Origin: Candidatus Nanoarchaeia archaeon
GTDB taxonomy: Archaea > Nanobdellota > Nanobdellia > SCGC-AAA011-G17 > JACPNG01
NCBI GenBank assembly: GCA_028714095.1
Contig: JAQTMY010000002.1
Coordinates: 78,636 to 142,635 of the forward strand
DNA length: 64,000 nt
Direction of reading: 5' to 3'
Shown here: piece after piece, positions 43,598-44,540 of the stretch
How positions within the stretch are numbered: the stretch's first letter is position 1
Layout of the letters: every line of letters begins with the position of its first letter
Program-made: the position numbers and the translations under genes
Notes under the pieces: generated by a model
Seen by the model: only the letters and a program-made list of their open reading frames with translations
Database searches by the model: none
What the model was told of the DNA's origin: nothing

Positions 43598-43921
43598 ATG
43601 CAAAGAATAAAAGAGGTAAATTCAGTAACCAAAATAAGAGTCTTGGTATTTATTCTGATAGTTCTAATTTTAGCTCAGGCCTTAAGTTTCTTTTTTATAT
43701 TTGATCTGAAAAATAAAGAAGAATCAGGAACAATAAAGTGCTTCAAGTCAGAGATTATAGAAAGAAGTTATAACTTTGATAAATGCGAAAATCCAATTTG
43801 TCAGGATTCCGGAGCAGGAACTCAAACATGTGTATGCTCAGATAATCCAGAAAAACAATACAAGCAAAGATGTGTGGAAGCAATAAAAGTAATACCTGTT
43901 GTTTACAAAGTTAATGAATAA
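43598..43921 (+). CDS. Membrane-anchored small Cys-rich protein, unknown
   Basis: 107 residues. An N-terminal TM helix at about 14-36, then an outside-facing tail with six cysteines (48, 63, 68, 78, 80, 92), probably disulfide-bonded, with CENPIC and CVCSDN motifs. No family recognised. TTTTTATATAAG (43568-43579) is a good promoter. The cyclodipeptide-synthase-like gene follows 55 bases later in the same direction, with a 7-bp inverted repeat (AAGAGCT, 43922-43928; AGCTCTT, 43963-43969) in the gap. Confidence 0.6.
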   Translation: MQRIKEVNSVTKIRVLVFILIVLILAQALSFFFIFDLKNKEESGTIKCFKSEIIERSYNFDKCENPICQDSGAGTQTCVCSDNPEKQYKQRCVEAIKVIPVVYKVNE

Positions 43922-43976
43922 AAGAGCTGTTAAATATGGTAGAAAAGATTAAAAATACTTTTAGCTCTTCTTCTTT

Positions 43977-44540
43977 ATGATAAAAGCATTCATGGGGGTA
44001 AGCATAAGAAATCCATTTTATTCTAAAAAAGAGAATATCTTAAGAGCAATTGAATTAGCTAAAGATTTTGATGAATTCTTAATTTTCGTAGTAGACCATC
44101 CATATAGACTCTCTTTACAAGCGTTTAATGGTATACCTGAAAAGATAGCAGAAAAGACCTCATTGGAAGAAGGGGAGGAACTTAAAAAATTTTTAATTAA
44201 TATATCAAGTAATTCAGCTAAGATAAAAATTTGTTCTTGGAAAGAACTAGAAGCTGAAAATTATAAAAGAATATTAACTGAGGTAAAAAATTTGGAAAAT
44301 AAGGATAAGAAATTTTCCAAATTAATTGAAGGAGAGTTTACTGGAACAGTTATCTCTAAAGTTGGTAATAATTTGCAGAAAAAAGAATTATCCAAAAGTT
44401 TTATAATGGAAGAGCTTGCTATGTTTATTTCTCTTATTGAGGGGGGTTATTCAATAAGAATTTCTAAATATTCGCAATCAAAATCAGTAAATTATTTTAT
44501 AGGGAAAAGAAACTTATCCCTAAAACATATTAGACTATAA
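43977..44540 (+). CDS. Cyclodipeptide synthase-like protein
   Basis: 187 residues. The N-terminus FMGVSIRNPFYSKKEN matches the tRNA-dependent cyclodipeptide synthase (CDPS) signature GxSxxNxYFS, in which Ser is the acyl acceptor (Ser37 of Streptomyces AlbC; Ser9 here). FIMEELAMF (142-150) aligns with AlbC Tyr178...Glu182, with Phe for Tyr and Glu146 kept. SKYSQS (Tyr165) aligns with AlbC Tyr202, and the end ...YFIGKRN fits the family's last helix. CDPSs use two aminoacyl-tRNAs to make cyclic dipeptides. It is shorter than most (about 200-260). These alignments are from memory. The usual tailoring genes (oxidases, methyltransferases) are not adjacent, and the gene lies between secE and ftsZ. 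Confidence 0.7.
   Translation: MIKAFMGVSIRNPFYSKKENILRAIELAKDFDEFLIFVVDHPYRLSLQAFNGIPEKIAEKTSLEEGEELKKFLINISSNSAKIKICSWKELEAENYKRILTEVKNLENKDKKFSKLIEGEFTGTVISKVGNNLQKKELSKSFIMEELAMFISLIEGGYSIRISKYSQSKSVNYFIGKRNLSLKHIRL

Follow-up and report, generated by a model that had tools for sequence, protein, structure and literature searches.

Within a 64,000-nucleotide stretch of DNA from a DPANN archaeon (hereafter the window), a plus-strand ORF encodes a 187-aa protein that a sequence-only reading had described as a minimal cyclodipeptide synthase (CDPS)-like enzyme in an archaeon. Its flanks carry genes for SecE (PF00584), Spt5/NusG and L11 in one direction and for FtsZ (PF00091/PF12327) and GluRS in the other (Table 1). 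The earlier placement between secE and ftsZ holds for these neighbours, with the addition of a 107-aa ORF on the secE side. This small ORF has counterparts beside secE in two congeners (116 aa in L033, 120 aa in L034); it is a conserved secE neighbour in congeners and lies outside the CDPS unit. As had been proposed, no tailoring enzyme adjoins the CDPS-like gene, and no transporter does so either. An in-frame stop four codons 5' of the ATG limits the open frame to 191 aa, so the start is well placed.

Table 1. Features of the CDPS-like locus and of the related radical SAM operons.
Feature	Position	Strand	Basis and remarks
CDPS-like gene, 187 aa	43977..44540	+	ATG start, TAA stop; hmmscan, phmmer, independent profile, ortholog L054
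Possible TATA box of a leaderless promoter (A/T-rich stretch)	43945..43965	+	~12-32 bp before the ATG; read by eye
107-aa ORF between SecE and CDPS-like genes	43598..43921	+	Apparent N-terminal membrane anchor (by eye); no Pfam match
Ser9 codon (AlbC S37 position, predicted nucleophile)	44001..44003	+	Residue-level alignment
Phe142 codon (AlbC Y178 position)	44400..44402	+	Alignment
Glu146 codon (AlbC E182 position)	44412..44414	+	Alignment
Tyr165-Ser166 codons (AlbC Y202-H203 positions)	44469..44474	+	Alignment
rSAM/CDPS/rSAM operons	L027:399-3290; L058:321-3431		First rSAM 57% identical between the two

Surveying a phylum sample with CDPS profiles uncovered a 192-aa ortholog, L054, which is 59% identical and comes from another DPANN family within the class. 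Comparing the two genes gave dN = 0.28 by the NG86 method, with dS saturated, and dN = 0.25 with dS = 1.08 by LWL85. The resulting dN/dS of ~0.23 indicates that the 187-aa protein is maintained under purifying selection. Together with its coordinates and the CDPS matches that led every search, this selection confirms that the ORF is real; its small size and its archaeal host, a DPANN member, were also correctly read.

Genomic context
Comparison with related genomes revealed how unevenly the gene is distributed. In L034, a small membrane-protein gene and secE come straight after ftsZ, with no CDPS gene, and in L033 (7880-8824) the slot from ftsZ to the membrane-protein gene is filled by two unrelated ORFs of 167 and 127 aa. 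The CDPS ORF is absent from 21 of 21 GluRS loci within the stretch compared, and a whole-genome survey found no CDPS in two same-genus or nine same-family genomes. Scanning genome contigs with the single protein returned no match. Because relatives and congener loci lack it, we regard the gene as accessory and sporadically inserted, at a site of variable content flanked by core genes. Its ortholog lies directly upstream of gyrB by our reading by eye, and the two genes, one beside gyrB and the other beside ftsZ, have no neighbour in common. The closest GluRS relatives belong to Sandtown 'Candidatus Nanoarchaeia archaeon' MAGs (76-77%), followed by Woesearchaeota/Nanoarchaeota. A binning error is unlikely since the contig is 344 kb long and the core genes on either side of the gene keep their synteny in congeners. 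No CDPS relatives appeared among viral contigs (searched with five CDPS queries), phages or plasmids, so these collections give no hint that a virus or plasmid carries the gene.

Homology to cyclodipeptide synthases
Searches against public models consistently led to CDPSs. By hmmscan, PF16715 was the best Pfam family (E=2.2e-4, 21.5 bits) and TIGR04539 the best NCBIfam model (E=2.6e-8, 33.7 bits). The match to PF16715, the profile proposed earlier as a check, is significant but falls below the curated cut-off of 27 bits; the score against TIGR04539 likewise lies under its cut-off of 45 bits, and both shortfalls count against an active CDPS. A genome-wide run of the NCBIfam model on the source genome returned no match, which we attribute to an initial filter in view of the significant direct hmmscan result. 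With phmmer, the top matches in the PDB were eight CDPS chains. An independent profile of 12 archaeal CDPSs, from which the 187-aa protein and L054 were left out, matched this ORF only within the window (E=2.4e-22). In profile-profile comparison, the ORF and L054 aligned with 12 archaeal XYP-side CDPSs at 98.6% probability (E=1e-15), against 0.2% for a GNAT control. The CDPS homology claimed at the outset is supported by these results, and we conclude from sequence that the ORF is a real, divergent and minimal CDPS homolog. A single-sequence AlphaFold2 model reached a pLDDT of 37, too low for use, so the fold assignment rests on homology, by which the protein would adopt a class-I-aaRS-like Rossmann fold.

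The best PDB match of the profile built from the ORF and L054 was the Porphyromonas gingivalis CDPS (PDB 9gun; 2.7e-7), a similarly short chain of 207 residues (likeness KAFVGISINHPYFTKK against KAFMGVSIRNPFYSKK). Unlike the 187-aa protein, this enzyme keeps Tyr at position 178 and Tyr-Pro at 202-203. The archaeal protein is shortened at its N-terminus and in its C-terminal helical segment, which again counts against activity; the short C-terminus is common to L054.

Active-site residues
Alignment to AlbC placed the residues singled out in the sequence-only reading where it had put them: S9 in GVSIRN, FYSKKEN, E146 in FIMEELAMF, and Y165. The full mapping is S37=S9, N40=N12, Y178=F142, E182=E146, Y202=Y165 and H203=S166. 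The catalytic Ser is kept in L054, and equivalents of E182 and the cyclising Y202 are present. Letters lining the P1 pocket (FGFVWMFS) are identical in the two orthologs, and those of the P2 pocket are nearly so (EGTSQKS against EGTSRKT in L054).

Two positions depart from the canonical pattern. The first is Y178, where the predicted Phe was borne out. The Y178F variant of AlbC is strongly impaired in forming the acyl-enzyme (PMC5935735), and among active CDPSs this Tyr is almost strictly, but not absolutely, conserved (PMC7566563). Phe occupies the same position in L054, in the NYH-type L021 and in the P-type L056, the last scoring far above the TIGR04539 cut-off (E=3.1e-24). Since L021 and L056 are otherwise intact, Phe at this position is not enough by itself to imply an inactive enzyme. 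The second is position 203, which is Ser in the 187-aa protein and Glu in L054, neither His nor Pro, and this too counts against activity.

These departures set the protein apart from both named subfamilies. It carries N12-Y165-S166 in place of the N40-Y202-H203 signature of the NYH subfamily, and Y165-S166 (YE in L054) in place of the Y202-P203 signature of the XYP subfamily. With NYH-type enzymes (AlbC, YvmC, BtCDPS; archaeal L021, L023-L026) it has Asn at 40, Ser, Glu and Tyr in common, but it lacks His203 and falls outside the NYH clade. With XYP-type enzymes (PDB 7qat-7qb8; archaeal P0002, P0004, L056) it shares the domain core, Ser, Glu and the cyclising Tyr. It differs from them in being ~40 residues shorter and in replacing the Pro after Tyr, and its Phe at Y178 is shared, among these comparators, only with L056. 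The CDPS reading stands as homology, with the protein assigned to neither subfamily by signature but to a small S-K-Y-[E/S] lineage.

Phylogeny and distribution
We built a tree from 25 archaeal and six solved bacterial CDPSs. The 187-aa ORF, L054, L027 and L058 formed one clade on the XYP side (UFBoot 99, SH-aLRT 95), and the split from the NYH set received 99/97. The clade persisted when the long row L028 was omitted (98/96), and its support fell to 81/81 once the alignment was cut off just before the Tyr202 motif, so the four-member grouping is probable rather than certain. All four members have the motif S-K-Y-[E/S], a lineage in which we found no characterised member. L027 and L058, with S-K-Y-[E], differ from the 187-aa protein in their length (~270-290 aa), their retention of Tyr178 and their radical SAM (rSAM) partners. 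In each, the CDPS gene has a radical SAM/SPASM gene on either side. This arrangement, identical in order across two archaeal families, looks like an undescribed biosynthetic operon. The genomes of the 187-aa ORF and L054 hold no ortholog of the first rSAM, only distant superfamily members. The 187-aa branch would be a reduced, stand-alone member of this clade.

Archaeal CDPS profiles found matches in 20 of 378 genomes of the class and in 22 of 371 genomes of an overlapping phylum sample, a few of them weak or partial. The rarity in archaea suggested earlier is thus borne out in that CDPSs are uncommon, but they are not exceptional in this group, occurring in ~5% of surveyed class genomes. Both NYH-type and P-type CDPSs are present among the matches. 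We set aside L010, which contains internal stops, and L030, a weak match (3.5e-4) that is not a clear CDPS.

Proposed function
We favour, with moderate confidence, an active, stand-alone and near-minimal CDPS of the divergent S-K-Y-[E/S] lineage on the XYP side, making an unmodified cyclodipeptide; its tRNA use, activity, product and role are all predictions from the alignments and gene context. Membership of one clade with L027 and L058, whose rSAM operons have a biosynthetic look, speaks for this reading, together with the kept Ser, Asn, Glu and Tyr and the CDPS matches. The Rossmann domain would bind aminoacyl-tRNA, and Ser9 would take the aminoacyl group to form aminoacyl-Ser9 in a ping-pong use of two aminoacyl-tRNAs. 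Glu146 would anchor and deprotonate this group, promoting attack on the aminoacyl group of the second aminoacyl-tRNA and yielding dipeptidyl-Ser9. Tyr165 would then relay a proton for ring closure, as Y202 does in AlbC (PMC5935735), and an unmodified diketopiperazine would be released. Because no tailoring gene lies nearby, a plain cyclodipeptide is the likely product, and it could diffuse out of the cell, or affect neighbours or a host. The signalling or surface role suggested in the sequence-only reading is speculative.

The same residues could serve a CDPS-derived aminoacyl- or dipeptidyl-transferase, an explanation we consider rather unlikely. Ser9 would still load an amino acid, while F142 and S166 (or Glu) would forfeit dipeptide positioning, and the outcome would be linear dipeptides, aminoacylated small molecules or amino acids freed by hydrolysis. 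Such a shift fits the changes at Y178 and H/P203 in both orthologs with Ser, Glu and Tyr kept, and modelling shows that H203 and Y178 maintain the reactive geometry in AlbC (PMC5935735). Against it, the Tyr of the ring-closure step is retained in four of four clade members, and Phe at Y178 recurs in otherwise canonical enzymes. Loss of catalysis altogether, leaving a regulatory protein that binds (aminoacyl-)tRNA, appears improbable: scores under the family cut-offs, Y178F and the existence of a clearly degenerate relative (L028) speak for it, but the two orthologs, 59% identical overall, agree fully in Ser, Glu, Tyr and the P1 letters, a match that would be unneeded without catalysis. That the ORF is no CDPS at all, but a class-I aminoacyl-tRNA synthetase fragment or an unrelated ORF scoring by chance, is barely credible given the independent profile (2.4e-22), the profile-profile match (1e-15), an ortholog under purifying selection and best solved relatives that are all CDPSs, even with low scores against public models, a fold common to CDPSs and class-I synthetases, and the collateral match to L030.

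Earlier work gives this set of genes few precedents. Neither the 2014 review (PMC4159871) nor the 2015 review (PMC4609331) lists an archaeal CDPS. The first, AQS34941, is of XYP type and was the only one in a 2018 survey of 765 CDPSs, all of which were placed in NYH or XYP (PMC5816076). Our search of the open full-text literature (as distinct from subscription papers) found nothing on CDPSs in connection with DPANN or Nanoarchaeota. The genes described here form a sparse but recurrent archaeal set in ~1 Mb genomes, including a lineage outside the NYH and XYP signatures. If active, the 187-aa enzyme would narrow down the indispensable residues, with Y178 and H/P203 not among them, and its product would be a concrete example of a candidate small diffusible molecule from DPANN archaea, a group whose ways of interacting with hosts are poorly understood. 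Extending the favoured reading, we tentatively raise a third CDPS active-site class in DPANN, X-Y-[E/S], whose most reduced branch has Phe at Y178. It would be active at 187 residues, among the smallest, and would make a plain cyclodipeptide that an ultrasmall archaeon uses towards its host or neighbours; its longer sisters would act together with two radical SAM enzymes in a pathway not yet described.

Other archaeal CDPS genes
Several further CDPS genes drew attention during the survey. L028:1381-2097 encodes a homolog whose six catalytic positions read SSYQSN in the alignment used; it has seemingly lost the catalytic Glu and Tyr and is probably non-catalytic. In three genomes of the same order as the source (L002:1351-2480, L008:1001-2124, L009:1495-2992), the CDPS gene directly adjoins a GNAT acetyltransferase gene, in all three of the same subfamily, which suggests that the cyclodipeptides are acetylated or GNAT-processed. 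For bacterial CDPSs, nearby N-acetyltransferase and radical SAM genes have been described before (PMC5767969, PMC4159871). The CDPS domain of L009:1495-2547, which the GNAT gene adjoins, is fused to a C-terminal SET domain (PF00856, 9.9e-9). The 2018 survey removed sequences without the Ser (PMC5816076). Cys replaces Ser at the AlbC S37 position in L031 (two tandem copies), L022 and L057, with the other catalytic residues kept. Lastly, L003:940-2082 encodes a 380-aa CDPS whose C-terminal extension contains an apparent membrane segment, as judged by eye.
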